This document shows, one piece after another, positions 1 through 15,811 of a stretch of 15,811 nt of DNA (positions within the stretch are counted from its first letter, which is position 1; every line of letters starts with the position of its first letter). The notes under the pieces were generated by a model, which was not told the origin of the DNA, ran no database searches, and was given only the letters and a program-made list of their open reading frames with translations. This DNA comes from Sulfitobacter alexandrii (lineage in GTDB: Bacteria > Pseudomonadota > Alphaproteobacteria > Rhodobacterales > Rhodobacteraceae): the NCBI RefSeq assembly GCF_001886735.1, contig NZ_CP018079.1:1-15811 (forward strand), given 5' to 3'. The translations under genes were made by a program, and so were the position numbers.

Positions 1-2153
1 TTGAACAGTCCATCGCGGACGTGGAACGCCTGCAAGCGATCGCCCGCGGTGAAGAGGAAGAGCCCGAGAAAACCACCGGCACAAGCGGGCGGCGCAAGCG
101 TGACGGGGTGGTCTATACCCCCGACTACATCGCGCGCTTCATCGTGGCCGAAACCCTGGGAACGCATCTGCGGGAAATTTTTGAGGACACCTTGCGCGCT
201 CACGCCAAGAAGGGCGCGGATGTCACCGACTACGAAAACATCCCCTGGCGGAAAAAGTCGGCCGAGCTGGAAGCTTGGCAAGCCTATCGCGATCGCCTGA
301 AATCTTTGCGCATTGTCGATCCCGCCTGTGGCTCCGGTGTGTTCCTGATCATGGCCTTCGACTTCATGAAGGCCGAACTGACCCGCGTAAACGACAAGAT
401 CAAAGACCTGCTGCCTAAGGCCGAGCATTTTGGCGATCTGCTCGACTATGTCCCCGACAGCGAAATTCTGACCGACAACCTCTTCGGCGTGGACGTGAAC
501 GAGGAAAGCATCGAGATCACCAAGCTGTCGCTCTGGATCAAGACCGCCCGGCGCGGCAAGGTTCTCGACAGCCTGTCGGGCAGCATCCGCGTCGGTGACA
601 GCCTGATCGAGGACAGCAACTTCGCCTATCTCGACCACGCCTTCACCTGGGAAACCGCCTTCCCCGGCGTCTTTGCCGAAGGCGGCTTTGACGTGGTCCT
701 GGGCAACCCGCCTTATGTGCGGATGGAATTCCTGAAGCTGCTGAAACCCTATCTGGAAAAGCGCTATGAGGTCGTGTCCGACCGGGCTGATCTCTACTGC
801 TATTTCTACGAACGCGGCCTGCGCTTGCTGAAACCGGGTGGGCGCTTGGGCTACATTTCCTCGAACACTTTCTTCAAGACCGGCTCGGGCAAGCCCCTGC
901 GCGAATACCTTCTGAAAGAGGCGACCATCGAAAGCGTGGTCGATTTTGGCGACCTGCAAGTCTTCGAGGGCGTAACCACCTATCCGGCGATCCTGACCAT
1001 GAAACGCGGGGCCGCGCCCAAAGGGCATGAGCTGCGCTTTTGGAAGGTGGATGCCCTGCCGGAAAACAACTTCTTGGCCACTTGGGAAGCTGCTGCCGGC
1101 CCATATCCACAAACAGCCTTGGGTGCCGGATCGTGGGAACTGGAAAACCCAGCCTTGCGTGCGCTGCGCGCCAAGATACGTAAAGGCCGCAAAACTCTCA
1201 AAGAGGTTTATGGCTCGCCGTTTGCAGGTATAAAGACTGGTTATAATGCGGCCTTCATCCTGACTCGTTCAGAACGTGACAACCTTGTTTTGGCTGACCC
1301 TAAATCGACCGATTTGTTGAAGCCAATACTGTTTGGAACCCAGCTCCAGCAATGGAAATCTGAAGCGCCAGAAAAATGGATAATTTATATCCCAAAAGCA
1401 GGTATTAATATCTCAGACTATCCTGCAATCGAAGATTGGCTTCGGCCTCATAAGGCAAAGCTCGCAGCTAGAGCTGCCAAGCAGAAATGGTTTGAGCTGC
1501 AACAGCCACAACAGAAATATCAAGCCACTTATGAGGGCACCAAGCTAATCTACCGAGACATCGCAAATCGACCCAGTTTTTCAGTCGATACAGGTAATTA
1601 CATTGACATGACTTGTTTCTGCATACCTGACGCGAGCCACTTTGAGGTGGCGTTACTATCATCTTCTGTTTTGTGGTTTTCATTAATTAGTGAAACGACG
1701 GTGGCCAGGGGCGGCTATTTTCGGATGAAATCACAATACTTGGAACCTTTACCCATTCCAGATGCCACTCCCGCTCAAAAAGCCGCCCTTGCCACCCTCG
1801 CTGAAACTGCTCAAACCCACGCAGAGGCTCGCTATAGCCTGCAAACCGCTCTGACCCGCCGGATACCCGATCTCTGCCCGCCTGACCGCGAACCCAAGTT
1901 GACCAACAAGCTCAAGGAATGGTGGACACTGCCCGATTTTGCCGCCTTCCGCGCCGAGGTGAAGAAGGTGTTCAAGGCCGACATCCCGCTGGCCGAGCGG
2001 TCCGACTGGGAGGATTGGATCAACCGCGACCGCGCTGAGATCGCCCGCCTGACCGCTGAGATCGCCCAGGCCGAAGCCCGGATCGACAGCATCGTCTATG
2101 ACCTGTTCGACCTGACCGAAGACGAAATCGGGCTGCTAGAGGCGGCAATCTAA
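1..2153 (+). CDS. Restriction-modification protein (type IIG-like), C-terminal part: N6-adenine methyltransferase and target recognition
   Basis: This is residues 346-1062 of the protein begun at 14776. A YTP motif at about 384-386 precedes the SAM-binding motif I, DPACGSG, at 452-458. The catalytic motif IV is NPPY at 581-584, typical of amino-methyltransferases that make N6-methyladenine. Residues of about 740-930 form the probable target-recognition domain, followed by the RMKSQYLEPLPIPD segment (around 920-935) that closes this domain in the family. A charged helical tail (about 1000-1062) ends the chain. All key motifs are intact, so the enzyme is likely active. The part coding for the recognition domain is markedly AT-richer than the rest (see findings). 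A terminator-like hairpin follows about 110 nt after the stop. Alternatively it could be a methylase-only member if the nuclease centre is inactive, which the intact PD...ELK argues against. Confidence 0.92.
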   Translation, partial: EQSIADVERLQAIARGEEEEPEKTTGTSGRRKRDGVVYTPDYIARFIVAETLGTHLREIFEDTLRAHAKKGADVTDYENIPWRKKSAELEAWQAYRDRLKSLRIVDPACGSGVFLIMAFDFMKAELTRVNDKIKDLLPKAEHFGDLLDYVPDSEILTDNLFGVDVNEESIEITKLSLWIKTARRGKVLDSLSGSIRVGDSLIEDSNFAYLDHAFTWETAFPGVFAEGGFDVVLGNPPYVRMEFLKLLKPYLEKRYEVVSDRADLYCYFYERGLRLLKPGGRLGYISSNTFFKTGSGKPLREYLLKEATIESVVDFGDLQVFEGVTTYPAILTMKRGAAPKGHELRFWKVDALPENNFLATWEAAAGPYPQTALGAGSWELENPALRALRAKIRKGRKTLKEVYGSPFAGIKTGYNAAFILTRSERDNLVLADPKSTDLLKPILFGTQLQQWKSEAPEKWIIYIPKAGINISDYPAIEDWLRPHKAKLAARAAKQKWFELQQPQQKYQATYEGTKLIYRDIANRPSFSVDTGNYIDMTCFCIPDASHFEVALLSSSVLWFSLISETTVARGGYFRMKSQYLEPLPIPDATPAQKAALATLAETAQTHAEARYSLQTALTRRIPDLCPPDREPKLTNKLKEWWTLPDFAAFRAEVKKVFKADIPLAERSDWEDWINRDRAEIARLTAEIAQAEARIDSIVYDLFDLTEDEIGLLEAAI

Positions 2154-2260: not shown

Positions 2261-2290
2261 GGACCGAACCCTTTATGGGTCGGTCCTTTT
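2261..2290 (+). terminator. Rho-independent terminator-like hairpin after the restriction-methyltransferase gene
   Basis: GGACCGAACCC (2261-2271) pairs with GGGTCGGTCC (2277-2286) apart from one bulged A. TTTT follows at 2287-2290. It lies about 110 nt downstream of the stop at 2153 and fits as the end of the abiE-RM operon. Because a promoter-like pair sits just upstream, it could also act as an attenuator for the next gene. Confidence 0.6.
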
Positions 2291-11903: not shown

Positions 11904-11918
11904 CGCAAGGATTTGCCC

Positions 11919-12548
11919 GTGAAAGCTGCCGCCCAGACCACCTGGAACAAGGGTCGCGTTGTAGGCAAAAAACCTCCGCTGACGCCCGACCAGGTCTCCC
12001 TGATCCGGATGATCCTGCGCCAGGAGAAAGCCCTGCGTGATCTGGCGCTGTTCAACGTGGCCCTCGATACCAGTTTCCGGGGGTCTGACCTGGTACGCCT
12101 GCGGGTCTCGGATGTGGCCACCCCGGCAGGGGTGCGCGAAATCGTCGAAATCCGACAAAAGAAAACCGAGACGCGCAATGCGCGTCCGGTCCAGGCGCGC
12201 CTGTCCTCCGGGACGCGCGACAGCTTGCGCGCCTATCTCGCAGCTTCAGAAAAGCCGCTGCACGGCTGGCTCTTCACGGGGCAGGGGGCACGGTGGTCCC
12301 AGTCCCATCTCAGTGAAAGTCAGCTCTGGCGTCTGTTCCGGGTCTGGCTGGAGAAGGCTCGCCTCGATCCCAGCCTCTACGGCCTGCATTCGCTGCGCCG
12401 GACCTTCCCGACCCATATCTACCAGCAGACCGGCAACCTGCGCGCGGCCCAGCTGCTGCTCGGCCATGCCAGTATTGAAAGCACCAAGGAATACATCGGC
12501 ACCGAACAGGCTGAAGCCCTCAAAATTGCGCGCAAGTATCACCTGTGA
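11919..12548 (+). CDS. Minimal tyrosine recombinase (phage-integrase family, catalytic domain only)
   Basis: A 209-aa protein containing just the catalytic domain. The catalytic set is present: R54 in SFRGSDL, K81 or K82 in the beta-turn RQKKTE, HSLR with H157 and R160, H183 in LLLGHASIESTK, and Tyr192 in KEYIG. The N-terminal core-binding domain of typical 300-400-aa integrases is missing, as in small plasmid-borne recombinases. Expected job: resolving plasmid dimers or site-specific integration. The GTG at 11919 has AAGG at 11907-11910 with 8-nt spacing, better placed than the TTG at 11913. It is followed almost directly by the WGR gene, so the two are probably co-expressed. Confidence 0.87.
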   Translation: MKAAAQTTWNKGRVVGKKPPLTPDQVSLIRMILRQEKALRDLALFNVALDTSFRGSDLVRLRVSDVATPAGVREIVEIRQKKTETRNARPVQARLSSGTRDSLRAYLAASEKPLHGWLFTGQGARWSQSHLSESQLWRLFRVWLEKARLDPSLYGLHSLRRTFPTHIYQQTGNLRAAQLLLGHASIESTKEYIGTEQAEALKIARKYHL

Positions 12549-12553
12549 CAGCC

Positions 12554-12805
12554 ATGCAGACCTATCTTGAGAAACGCCAGCCTGCGCAGAAAATGGCCCG
12601 GTTCTACCGGATGGCGGTCATGCCGAACCTGTTCGGCGAATGGACGCTGTACCGCGAATGGGGCCGCATAGGGCAGGGCGGTCAGGTTCGGATGGATTGG
12701 TTCGAGGACGAGAACCAGGCCGTTGCGGCTCTGGTCACACTGGAAGCCTCCAAGCGTCAGCGGGGCTATTGGGTGGAGCCTCAGCAGCTCGCGATGTTTG
12801 GATAA
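12554..12805 (+). CDS. WGR-domain small protein
   Basis: An 83-aa protein made of a single WGR domain: ARFYRMAVMPNLFGEWTLYREWGRIGQGGQV, with W36-G37-R38 (quoted as adjacent short motifs FYRMAV, NLFGEW, REWGRIG). WGR domains in PARP proteins bind nucleic-acid ends; the bacterial stand-alone members are common in alphaproteobacteria and lack an assigned function. The ATG at 12554 is 5 nt past the recombinase stop; a GTG at 12545 would overlap that stop and add three residues. Pairing with a recombinase hints at a DNA-processing role, which is inference. Confidence 0.85.
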   Translation: MQTYLEKRQPAQKMARFYRMAVMPNLFGEWTLYREWGRIGQGGQVRMDWFEDENQAVAALVTLEASKRQRGYWVEPQQLAMFG

Positions 12806-12819
12806 CTTTATTGGCCCAG

Positions 12820-12848
12820 TTTACATCTGAGCGGGATGTCTATATGTC
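12820..12848 (+). promoter_or_regulatory. Candidate promoter P1 at palindrome 1
   Basis: TTTACA at 12820-12825 lies 3 nt before the left arm of palindrome 1. Candidate -10 elements are TATGTC at 12843-12848 (17-bp spacer) or TATATG at 12841-12846 (15 bp), both inside the palindrome. The layout copies that of P2. Confidence 0.4.
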
Positions 12849-12873
12849 CTTAGGACATATAGACATCCCGCTC
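12829..12873. repeat. Palindrome 1: 45-bp perfect inverted repeat upstream of abiEi
   Basis: Two fully complementary 22-nt arms (12829-12850 and 12852-12873) surround a single T at 12851. The centre TATGTCCTTAGGACATA is identical to that of palindrome 2, but the outer 14 bp of each arm differ between the two and still pair perfectly with their own partner. It is a likely operator for AbiEi, which in characterised systems represses its own promoter through inverted repeats. Confidence 0.9.
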
Positions 12874-12911
12874 GAACCTAGTCACGCTTTTATTTGCTTT
12901 GGGAACCTCTC

Positions 12912-12940
12912 TTGACATAACGCCATCCTTACCCTTATGT
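12912..12940 (+). promoter_or_regulatory. Candidate promoter P2 of the abiE-RM operon
   Basis: A consensus TTGACA at 12912-12917 is followed after 17 bp by TTATGT at 12935-12940, inside palindrome 2. Transcription would begin near 12947, in the right arm, giving a leader of only about 20 nt before the abiEi ATG. Confidence 0.6.
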
Positions 12941-12966
12941 CCTTAGGACATAAGGGTAAGGATGGC
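12922..12966. repeat. Palindrome 2: 45-bp perfect inverted repeat overlapping the abiEi ribosome binding site
   Basis: Perfect 22-nt arms (12922-12943 and 12945-12966) flank a single T at 12944; the 17-bp centre is the same as in palindrome 1. The right arm contains AAGGA at 12958-12962, the SD of abiEi, whose ATG begins 2 nt after the palindrome. The left arm carries the -10 of P2. A protein on this site would block transcription, and an RNA hairpin would hide the SD. Confidence 0.92.
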
Positions 12967-12968
12967 AG

Positions 12969-13850
12969 ATGAATTTTACCGAAGGCCTAGAAAAGGCTAT
13001 AAATGACAAGGACTTGCCAGTCGTAACCTTCTACAAATTCTTCGTTCTGGGCTACCATCTGTTTCACAAAAAGGCGCTGAACGGCGAGCCGTTGAAGCGC
13101 TTACCGCACGGCTGGGATCAGACACGCGCCAAAAATGCGCTACGACGCCTTGAGGCACGGAAGGTGCTTGTCATGGACTCCGACTTCCGCTCGGGTGTGT
13201 GGCGTGTAACGCAATCAACGAGAGCAGGATCGGCGGAAGAGGTCGCCTGCATCGCTGATCCTTTCGCCTACGTCTCGCATCTATCTGCCATGCAGCGCTA
13301 TGGGCTTACGGATCGCAGCCCACAGGCGCTACATCTGACAACCCCCAAAAGACCCCTGTGGAATGCACTCCGAAAGGAGCGTCTTCGTGAAGACCTGCCC
13401 GATCTCGACCAGATTGAAGCGCCCGTTCTCAACAGGTCCGGCTTCAAGGATACGATCCGTCGCCGCCCGATGGTGGTGCATGTATCAAGCCACCCTTGGA
13501 CACCTGCACCTGTGAGTGGTGAGGAAACGCGGATCACCTCGATTGGCCAAACCTTTGCTGATATGCTTTCTGAACCGCAGCTTTGTGGGGGCATGCGCCA
13601 TGTTCTCGATGTCTGGGAAAATGAGGCGGATCAGTGGGTGCCCGAAATTATTGCCGCAATTGATCTCCTCGACAGTAAGATCGCAAAAGTTCGCGCAGGC
13701 TATATTCTGTCTGAAGTCATGGACATAGATGATCCGGCGCTGCACAAATGGGAGCAGTTTGCTCAACGGGGCGGATCACGCAAACTCGATCCTGACGCCG
13801 AATATGCCCCTGAATTCTCAGAACGCTGGATGATTTCAATCAATGTCTGA
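12969..13850 (+). CDS. abiEi: AbiEi-type antitoxin / transcriptional repressor (type IV toxin-antitoxin)
   Basis: A 293-aa protein. The N-terminal part is a probable winged-helix DNA-binding domain (HGWDQTRAKNALRRLEARKVLVMD at about 47-70, then FRSGVWRVTQ). This is followed by the AbiEi signature ADPFAYVSHLSAMQRYGLTD (96-115) with LHLTTP at 121-126, and a C-terminal ISSIGQ-type region: TSIGQTFADML at 190-200, then LCGGMRHVLDVW. AbiEi neutralises AbiEii without direct binding in known systems and represses the operon via inverted repeats. AAGGA 6 nt upstream fixes the ATG. It overlaps abiEii by 8 nt (ATG inside its last codons), so the two are translationally coupled. Confidence 0.88.
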   Translation: MNFTEGLEKAINDKDLPVVTFYKFFVLGYHLFHKKALNGEPLKRLPHGWDQTRAKNALRRLEARKVLVMDSDFRSGVWRVTQSTRAGSAEEVACIADPFAYVSHLSAMQRYGLTDRSPQALHLTTPKRPLWNALRKERLREDLPDLDQIEAPVLNRSGFKDTIRRRPMVVHVSSHPWTPAPVSGEETRITSIGQTFADMLSEPQLCGGMRHVLDVWENEADQWVPEIIAAIDLLDSKIAKVRAGYILSEVMDIDDPALHKWEQFAQRGGSRKLDPDAEYAPEFSERWMISINV

Positions 13851-14772
13851 CAATGACCCCCACGCGCAAGATAGAACATTCGACATCGTCGATGTCGATG
13901 TTCGTGCATGGGTCGAAACCGCGCGCGCCAACCCAACGCTCTATCGAGATCGCCAGGTTACAGAGATTGTCCTGGGGGCAATTGGTTTGGCCCCTTCATT
14001 ATCAAAAACGCTCGTTTTGAAAGGTGGGGCGGTCATGGCCCTAGCGTTCAAAAGCAATCGGGTCACCGGGGATGTGGACTTCACCTCGATGGCAGAGCCC
14101 GCTGACCTGACGGAAAAGATCACCGCCGAACTGAATGAGATATTGCCTAGCACTGCGATCAAGCTCGGCTATCTCGATCTTATCTGCCGAGTGCAATCGG
14201 TTAAGAAGATGCCGCGTGCCGAGAACTTTGAGGATCATGAATTCCCTGCGCTGAAAGTCAAAGTAGGGTCTGCCACACGCGGGACGGCTGAAGCCGCTCG
14301 GCTCGCTGACGGCAAGGCAAGCCGGGTTCTTGATGTCGAGATCAGCTTCCGTGATCAGGTCTATGCCTTCCAGGAGCTGAACCTGCACGGGGCCGGTGTG
14401 GCGGTACGCGCGTTCACAATTCATGAGCTCATTGCCGAAAAATTCCGCGCTCTGCTTCAACAAATCACCCGCAAGCACAAGCGCAACAGGCGACAGGACG
14501 TCTACGACATCGCCTTTCTGATAGATGAGCATGATTTCGGGGATGCTGACAAAACAGCCATCCTGACCACATTTATCGAAAAGTGCCGCAGCCGTGGGAT
14601 CGAGGTCAAACCGGACTCCATGGATGACCCGGAAATCAAGCAACGCGCCCAGGCCGATTGGGAAACGCTCGCCCTCGAAATTGGTGACCTTCCGCCCTTT
14701 GAAGAGCGCTTTGCGCTTATGCGCGATCTCTATGTTTCGCTGCCATGGGGCGGCATCAAGAAAGACCGTTAA
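13843..14772 (+). CDS. abiEii: AbiEii/AbiGii-type nucleotidyltransferase toxin
   Basis: A 309-aa nucleotidyltransferase of the DUF1814/AbiEii class. Motif I is KGG at 60-62 with the metal-binding GDVDF at 76-80; a further acidic pair LDVEISF is at 163-169; the C-terminal conserved part has HELIAEKFRALL (194-205) and RRQDVYDIAFLI (216-227). Related toxins (AbiE, MenT) transfer nucleotides, in some cases to tRNA 3' ends, halting growth; the substrate here is unknown. All catalytic residues are present. The start overlaps abiEi by 8 nt, and the stop is only 3 nt before the restriction-methyltransferase start, which ties toxin and RM expression together. Confidence 0.9.
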   Translation: MSDNDPHAQDRTFDIVDVDVRAWVETARANPTLYRDRQVTEIVLGAIGLAPSLSKTLVLKGGAVMALAFKSNRVTGDVDFTSMAEPADLTEKITAELNEILPSTAIKLGYLDLICRVQSVKKMPRAENFEDHEFPALKVKVGSATRGTAEAARLADGKASRVLDVEISFRDQVYAFQELNLHGAGVAVRAFTIHELIAEKFRALLQQITRKHKRNRRQDVYDIAFLIDEHDFGDADKTAILTTFIEKCRSRGIEVKPDSMDDPEIKQRAQADWETLALEIGDLPPFEERFALMRDLYVSLPWGGIKKDR

Positions 14773-14775
14773 TTC

Positions 14776-15811
14776 ATGAATTTGTTCAACCGTAAGACCC
14801 TGAAGCGCCACATCAAAGCCGATCCGGTCCCGTCAGAGCATCTGGCTGCGCTGGAAGCCTGGGCAGAGTTGATCAGCTCGGGCCGGATTGAACGCCTGAA
14901 GGAAACCGCCCTCCATGGGCAGTTCGCCTCCAAGATCGTTGAAGGTGTTCTCGGCTACCATGGCCCAGCCGGTGGCGCGGATTACAACGTCTCAACCGAA
15001 CAAAATATTCTGCGCGGCAGCGTCGATCTGGCGCTTGGCCGCTTTGGCGGCAAGACGCCTGACATCGTGGCACCATTCGAGCTGAAGGGCGCAGATACCC
15101 GCGACCTCGATGCAATCATGCCGGGCCGGAACAAGAGCCCCGTTCAACAGGCGTGGGAATACGCCATGAACGCCCGTGGCGTGAAATGGGTGCTGGTCTC
15201 GAACATGATCGAGCTCCGCTTCTACGGCTTCGGAGAAGGCACCTCGGCCTATGAGGAATTCCGCCTCGACCAGCTGACAGACCCGGAAGAATACGCGCGC
15301 TTCACACTGCTCTTGTCGGCGGAAAACCTGCTGTCTGGTCGCACGGCTGATCTGTTGAAAGAAAGCCGCCGCGAAGACAAGGACATTACCGACAGCCTGT
15401 ATCAGGACTACAAGGACCTGCGCCTCAAGCTCCTGAGTGCCGTCCAGAAGGCCGATGCCGCGATCGCGCCCCTTGATGCGATTGCCCTCGCGCAGAAGAT
15501 CCTCGATCGGGTGTTGTTCATTGCCTTTGCTGAAGACACCGGCCTGCTACCAGACAACACACTGGAAAACGCCTTCGTCGCGCGCGACCCTTACAACCCT
15601 CGCCCCGTCTGGGACAATTTCAAGGGTCTGTTCCGCGCCATCGACGAGGGTAACAACGAGCTGAAAATCCCGCGCTACAACGGGGGGCTGTTCCGCGAAG
15701 ACGCGGTGATCAACGGGCTGATCATACCCGATGACATCTGCGAGGGGTTCAAGACTCTGGGCGGGTATGACTTCGCCTCCGAGGTCTCGGTCACGGTCCT
15801 CGGCCACATCT
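14776..15811 (+). CDS. Restriction-modification protein (type IIG-like), N-terminal part: nuclease and helical connector
   Basis: This is residues 1-345 (plus one base) of a 1062-aa protein that continues at position 1 of the window. The N-terminal 150 residues look like a PD-(D/E)xK endonuclease: D84, then PD at 95-96, ELK at 102-104, and QQAWEY at 124-129, as in type IIG and MmeI-like enzymes. Residues 200-340 are a helical connector containing the family signatures LDRVLFIAFAEDTGLLP (about 244-260) and YNGGLF (301-306). A single chain that both cuts and methylates is expected to act alone, using SAM and Mg2+. The ATG lies 3 nt after the abiEii stop, with only a weak purine-rich SD (AAGAAAGA inside abiEii), so translation is probably coupled. 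The recognition sequence cannot be read from the sequence. Confidence 0.9.
   Translation, partial: MNLFNRKTLKRHIKADPVPSEHLAALEAWAELISSGRIERLKETALHGQFASKIVEGVLGYHGPAGGADYNVSTEQNILRGSVDLALGRFGGKTPDIVAPFELKGADTRDLDAIMPGRNKSPVQQAWEYAMNARGVKWVLVSNMIELRFYGFGEGTSAYEEFRLDQLTDPEEYARFTLLLSAENLLSGRTADLLKESRREDKDITDSLYQDYKDLRLKLLSAVQKADAAIAPLDAIALAQKILDRVLFIAFAEDTGLLPDNTLENAFVARDPYNPRPVWDNFKGLFRAIDEGNNELKIPRYNGGLFREDAVINGLIIPDDICEGFKTLGGYDFASEVSVTVLGHI

Follow-up and report, generated by a model that had tools for sequence, protein, structure and literature searches.

The DNA analysed here is a stretch of 15,811 nucleotides (nt) from Sulfitobacter alexandrii, referred to below as the window, which is an entire contig (C4, 1-15811) of a six-contig, 4.69-Mb assembly. 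The system in question is one compact three-gene operon behind a palindromic promoter, encoding the two proteins of an AbiE toxin-antitoxin pair followed by a restriction-modification (RM) enzyme, all on the forward strand. The first gene (12969..13850) encodes AbiEi, a 293-residue antitoxin and predicted autorepressor with a winged-helix N-terminus, and the second (13843..14772) encodes AbiEii, a toxin of 309 residues with a nucleotidyltransferase fold. The third encodes a type IIG RM enzyme, the N-terminal part of which (residues 1-345) occupies 14776..15811 while the remainder, up to the stop codon, lies across the cut of the circle at 1..2153. The AbiEi and AbiEii frames share 8 nt, and 3 nt separate the AbiEii stop from the RM start codon at 14776; both figures had been given in an earlier note on this DNA and were found again when the sequence was re-read. 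Position 15811 is a mere cut point of the circular contig, as the RM frame is open past it and continues from 1 to 2153, giving 1062 residues with no inner stop, and this uninterrupted frame also speaks for a circular molecule. The terminator-like hairpin that the earlier note had placed at 2261 is present as well, reading GGACCGAACCC...GGGTCGGTCC and then TTTT on the forward strand (2261..2290), 3' of the RM gene. Given the spacing and order of the genes, we infer one transcript spanning all three; a consensus promoter scan was at background (2 found compared with 1.5 +/- 1.2 in shuffles) and neither supports nor excludes internal promoters.

The promoter had been described as controlled by a palindrome, and a palindromic promoter does lie upstream of AbiEi; it holds, however, not a single palindrome but two perfect ones of 45 base pairs (bp). 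P1 (12829..12873) and P2 (12922..12966) each have 22-bp arms around one central base, are identical over a 17-bp core (TATGTCCTTAGGACATA) and divergent in their outer arms, and are the two longest of the three palindromes with arms of at least 12 bp in the window. When folded as single-stranded DNA, each is far more stable than its 200 shuffled versions, with z-scores of -14.0 and -11.1, respectively. A -35-like hexamer, TTGACA, is found on the forward strand at 12912..12917, 4 nt outside P2, and a TTTACA hexamer at 12820-12825, 3 nt beyond the left end of P1. Among distinct P2 sites of related loci, a five-of-six match to TTGACA occurs at the P2-adjacent place in 36 of 62, the counts being only 3 of 62 at the mirror-image place and 10 of 62 in an interval nearby; at P1 the hexamer signal is weaker and appears on both sides (9/59 and 17/59, with 1 and 10 in the neighbouring intervals). 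From the position statistics at P2, the -10 element and transcription start of the abiE promoter most likely lie within this palindrome. The palindromes and the -35 hexamer expected of an inverted-repeat operator over a promoter are present, and AbiEi is predicted to bind there.

AbiEii is a member of the AbiEii/DUF1814 nucleotidyltransferase toxins, with matches to Pfam PF08843 (E=2.9e-28, 99.9 bits, cut-off 22.5) and to PDLC02306 (E=9.1e-111). Its structure model (predicted local distance difference test score 91.1) has its best fold matches in MenT3/TglT and MenT4, and residues K60-G61-G62, D77 and D79 are invariant across 34 relatives. AbiEi has the fold of an AbiE type IV antitoxin, a winged helix plus a C-terminal domain, and the placing of its gene first, overlapping that of the toxin, is likewise the type IV gene order. 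Two more AbiEii-family matches, of equal score and from another subfamily, occur in the same genome (G000:C5:11556-12404 and G000:C6:301797-302645).

The RM protein matches Pfam Eco57I (E=6e-45) and, over its whole length, PDLC03609 (E=1.4e-137). It joins a nuclease-like motif, an N6-adenine methyltransferase and a target-recognition domain in a single chain, the composition of a type IIG enzyme; the N-terminal part contains PDIVAPFELK at residue 95, which we take to be the nuclease-like motif, and the part beyond the cut contains the adenine methyltransferase, with DPACGSG at 452 and NPPY at 581, and then the variable target-recognition domain at about residues 751-950. Outside residues 751-950, identity among 14 relatives compared was mostly above 60%, rising above 90% in the close set; within residues 751-950 it was only 22-62% in 13 of the 14 and 98-100% in the fourteenth. 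The enzyme of locus L005 is the only one of the 14 with this plasmid's version of the target-recognition domain. To judge from these comparisons, RM enzymes that are otherwise near-identical appear to have swapped target-recognition domains with no accompanying change in AbiE, and since the specificity would then change with AbiE constant, a given methylation pattern is unlikely to be what AbiE senses.

A genome-neighbourhood search of the kind proposed in the earlier note found that the trio is not unique to this plasmid. Scanning genomes with an AbiEii alignment gave 151 confirmed relatives, the best 80 of which were analysed as loci; many of these are near-duplicates, and counts of distinct arms or tree-based counts are used where stated. 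An RM relative starts 3-10 nt past AbiEii in 11 of the 80 loci (L003-L012 and L020), three of the 11 ending at a contig edge. Full AbiE frames are followed by only an N-terminal RM remnant in L002 and L018, an MmeI-type enzyme stands in place of the RM relative in L013, and the remaining 66 loci have no RM match downstream, although five of them have less than 500 nt of downstream DNA, too little to judge. The trio of L020, from Fodinicurvata, is diverged (67% identity for AbiEii and 78% for RM), which indicates that the arrangement is not just a recent copy. Furthermore, 25 plasmid records match 12500-15811, with 16 covering at least 80% of that stretch, and seven plasmids were inspected in detail. 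The trio is complete on plasmids of Pseudosulfitobacter (H1) and Thioclava (H16); on pP13_h of Phaeobacter piscinae P13 the RM gene is split by an insertion sequence (IS) and both AbiE genes are intact; in Paracoccus alcaliphilus it is AbiEii that is split by an IS; Sulfitobacter OXR-159 has AbiE and no RM; and on two Paracoccus plasmids it is AbiE that is missing beside an RM gene, the match in one case covering only 612 of the 1062 residues, with 74% identity for one AbiE-less RM on a Paracoccus plasmid. The pP13_h locus (L088) is 99.9% identical to window positions 12895-15811 over AbiE and the RM start, the interrupting element being IS1247, and it lacks P1, the match to the window beginning after that palindrome.

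Seen from the side of the RM enzyme, relatives were present in 8 of 244 genomes of the order, five of them at 60% identity or more. Two of these five are accompanied by AbiE (this genome and G358) and three are not (G490, G346 and G369); AbiE is thus absent beside some relatives of 60-87% identity, and the three distant relatives are likewise without it. In G346 and G369 the gene upstream of RM looks, by eye, like an XRE-type regulator. AbiE and RM thus neither consistently co-occur nor remain jointly intact, with 66 of 80 AbiE loci lacking RM, three of five close RM relatives lacking AbiE, and broken RM genes standing beside intact AbiE. The genes found directly behind AbiE elsewhere include a GHKL-type ATPase, a protein kinase and a KAP NTPase (10 downstream genes, hand-picked from the 80 loci, were given a Pfam scan, and five had a match). 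Because other genes occupy this place and the two halves come apart freely, the RM gene can be read as one of several passengers, and it reads best as cargo under AbiEi's promoter with exchanged target-recognition domains. No viral contig in the set searched encodes an AbiEii relative, so the family is not viral in that set.

The palindromes were surveyed in 87 loci of the AbiE clade with at least 250 nt upstream. In all but one, AbiEi is preceded by palindromes that have this core and arms of 11 bp or more, two in 72 loci and one in 14, while the 87th (L055) has a palindrome with 23-bp arms and a different centre. Little beyond the core TCCTNAGGA is common to the palindromes of the clade. The centres of P1 and P2 lie 82-120 bp apart in 54 of 55 distinct loci and 165 bp apart in the other; helical phasing was considered and rejected, the spacing being unphased at 10, 10.5 or 11 bp. 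Palindromes with arms of at least 14 bp number 162 upstream of AbiEi compared with 15 elsewhere in 1.16 Mb, six of the 15 in one cyanobacterial locus, and a search for the 17-bp core in 390 genomes of the order gave hits in five, each with two sites 93-96 bp apart and always beside AbiEi. Such palindromes are found in none of 34 loci of other AbiE families, six of which are shorter than 3 kb and may lack the promoter; the only long repeats there are two terminator-like ones with a loop of 4, and the idea that the palindromes are general to AbiE was discarded. They are not tied to RM either, being the same in loci without it. The palindromes are, in short, a hallmark of this AbiE clade. Two viral contigs, L102 (near 5490, 19-bp arms) and L103 (near 231, 18-bp arms), have the 17-bp core within a palindrome and no AbiEi match, and these are taken as chance occurrences.

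Across 122 distinct palindromes, arm pairing was 100% at positions 1-12, 92.6-99% at 13-21, 80% at 22 and 44% at 23, falling to chance beyond; entry into the set required an uninterrupted arm of at least 11 bp (at least 8 in one set), which to some extent guarantees the pairing at positions 1-11. Base entropy in the arms was about 1.8-2 bits from position 11 outward, such that the outer arms are near-random in sequence yet 98% complementary. Parsimony on an AbiEi tree of 72 loci counted, at positions 9-21, 568 mirrored pair changes and only 31 others (16 one-sided and 14 two-sided pairing losses, and one other), whereas at flanking positions 26-36 one-sided changes were the commonest class (453 of 804). 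When only the 16 closest loci are considered, every one of the 27 arm changes is mirrored. Outer-arm divergence also tracks four-fold synonymous divergence, at 0.28 for synonymous values of 0.1-0.2, 0.28 for 0.2-0.3 and 0.67 at saturation. Selection alone, having to await second-site repairs, should slow the arms, whereas arm copying gives mirrored changes at an approximately neutral rate; with 2% of pairs unpaired, we estimate that restoration would be roughly a hundred times faster than mutation. Unpaired cells were 26 of 1152 and G-T accounted for just three of the 26, and this absence of enrichment gives no sign of selection for an RNA stem, though copying could hide one. DNA-level copying of the arms together with selection on arm length fits these observations best. 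In L008 and L013 another palindrome (14-bp arms, loop of 4) lies about 1.2 kb upstream of AbiEi, and the two loci differ in it by a mirrored change; arm copying may extend beyond AbiE.

Starting from what is observed of gene order, family membership, recurrence, the separability of AbiE and RM, mirrored arm evolution and clade restriction, we read the locus, with moderate confidence, as a modular AbiE operon with an RM passenger and an arm-copied palindromic promoter. AbiEi would act as winged-helix antitoxin and autorepressor and AbiEii as a nucleotidyltransferase toxin of the MenT kind; downstream, the single-chain type IIG enzyme would be a passenger that came under AbiEi's promoter, by which its expression level is presumably set. 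That AbiEi may set the level of RM, as the earlier note had proposed, is plausible. The promoter would be held by the two perfect palindromes of about 45 bp, the conserved centre of which (TCCTNAGGA and a few adjoining bases) is presumably contacted by AbiEi; beyond the core the base sequence would be nearly free, one arm being kept the mirror image of the other by DNA-level copying, most likely through fold-back template switching during replication, and selection would hold the arm length near 22 bp. Several observations count against this account as it stands. In several bins the arms are less diverged than the spacer (0.275 compared with 0.350 at four-fold divergence of 0.2-0.3) and are hence not strictly neutral; passive copying does not on its own account for an arm length so sharp and clade-specific; the likeness of P1 to P2 within a locus at positions 11-20 is 0.333, compared with 0.268 between loci, a value reached in 3 of 2000 permutations; and the palindromes are alike with and without RM, which leaves them silent on the partnership of AbiE and RM. 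Some arm bases are thus probably read, so that the arms would not be wholly sequence-free. What AbiEi reads is probably the core together with some of the inner arm bases, by analogy with the operators of Streptococcus agalactiae and Mycobacterium tuberculosis (PMC3985639 and PMC7319586).

It is here that the strongest competing explanation arises, namely that the palindromes are ordinary operators read by sequence, with one half-site per AbiEi monomer as in S. agalactiae, their perfect symmetry being a passive result of template switching and the folded form having no function. In size and place they match the S. agalactiae operator, in which the promoter is overlain by a pair of 23-bp inverted repeats with 3 bp between them (PMC3985639 and PMC7319586), the bases that P1 and P2 of a locus share beyond chance are concentrated at positions 6-14, and template switching that perfects inverted repeats is established (PMC7202029 and PMC8604942). 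The outer arms of P1 and P2 within a locus nevertheless differ, positions 15-22 being close to the between-locus level, yet pairing stays at 92% or more up to position 21; in addition, arm lengths are narrow (21-24 bp in 116 of 139) and differ between clades, whereas under passive copying alone the arms would be expected to shorten or lengthen at their ends; such copying does not explain so sharp and clade-specific a length. We regard this explanation as unlikely, albeit one to be taken seriously. The narrow arm length could mean that the protein needs a symmetric site of such a size or that the folded form has a role, the latter being a tentative option of decidedly lesser weight. A bolder version of it, which we think rather unlikely, is that control in this AbiE clade depends on whether its DNA can fold and not on sequence only: paired, near-free palindromes of fixed arm length, kept perfect by arm copying, would act as hairpins or cruciforms sensed by AbiEi or the replication fork, and the toxin and defence cargo such as RM would be released when supercoiling is disturbed or DNA becomes single-stranded, for instance during an infection by phage. 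Folding might instead matter in RNA, for example by hiding the abiEi ribosome-binding site, since the right arm of P2 ends 2 nt ahead of the ATG (12966 versus 12969) and covers the ribosome-binding region. This is improbable, as the start predicted from TTGACA lies near the P2 centre, which would leave the left arm out of the transcript; P1 is built alike although no start codon is near it; the nearer palindrome ends at least 45 nt before AbiEi in many relatives; and the mismatches lack the G-T excess discussed above, although copying could mask one. An Rfam element was also sought in the window and rejected, there being no match.

The relation of AbiE to RM likewise admits other explanations. 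The earlier note had treated the two as a mutually dependent single system in which loss or inhibition of RM frees AbiEii, killing plasmid-free or infected cells, and the compactness of the operon, with its 3-10 nt spacing in 11 of 80 loci including the diverged Fodinicurvata copy, is what such a system would look like. The many AbiE loci without RM, the RM relatives without AbiE and the apparent exchange of RM specificity with AbiE unchanged speak against it, and a toxin triggered by loss of RM is hard to square with pP13_h, where RM is broken beside intact AbiE, or with the RM remnants of L002 and L018; we consider it very improbable. At the other extreme, plasmid shuffling may have put RM behind AbiE as a chance neighbour expressed on its own. 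RM relatives are indeed also found behind unrelated genes, but the short stop-to-start distance is kept across many genera and in the diverged copy, and no promoter- or terminator-like sequence fits between AbiEii and RM; we consider this reading quite improbable.

On the modular reading, AbiE promoters can carry other defence genes as cargo, the pairing being loose and not that of a fused system. The clade also supplies about 120 distinct natural perfect palindromes in which base pairing is kept and sequence is not, a set with which two questions become testable: can a functional DNA element be preserved for long periods by template switching, and is the operator of a toxin-antitoxin system recognised through its capacity to fold? 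The literature searched contained no account of AbiE and RM as one system or of sequence-free palindromes at AbiE, most subscription papers and preprints falling outside that search. We regard the operon as a new AbiE variant that carries RM as cargo; the feature deserving follow-up is its mirrored palindromes, nearly free in sequence.

Upstream of AbiE in this plasmid lie a tyrosine recombinase and a WGR-domain protein (11913-12805) with a 4-nt frame overlap; Paracoccus alcaliphilus and Sulfitobacter OXR-159 have both genes annotated upstream of AbiE too, and Pseudosulfitobacter has the recombinase there. Additionally, a perfect palindrome with 12-bp arms is located at 2556-2580, within a Bro-N gene.

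Compared with known systems, the RM enzyme resembles type IIG enzymes of the Eco57I and MmeI kind in having the nuclease-like motif, N6-adenine methyltransferase and variable target-recognition domain in one polypeptide, and differs from the usual case in being placed behind AbiE and not behind its own regulator or in another operon. The type I RM island controlled by RptR is similar in that a small DNA-binding repressor encoded first sets the RM level; RptR, however, is not an antitoxin, and its sites are short TAGCTA palindromes (PMC12255303). Template-switch correction of quasipalindromes turns imperfect into perfect inverted repeats and predicts mirrored double changes such as those seen here, whereas PMC7202029 presents it as a mutation mechanism at single sites and not as a process that preserves a conserved promoter element in the long term. 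The closest relatives are the AbiE type IV systems, AbiEi/AbiEii of S. agalactiae and Rv2827c/Rv2826c (MenT4) of M. tuberculosis, in which the antitoxin gene also comes first and is overlapped by that of the toxin, and with which the folds of both proteins and the inverted-repeat promoter are held in common (PMC3985639 and PMC7319586). Whereas the known operator is one repeat pair with 4 mismatches in 23 bp, the promoter described here has two separate perfect palindromes with near-free outer arms, and on this plasmid the next gene in the operon is an RM gene.

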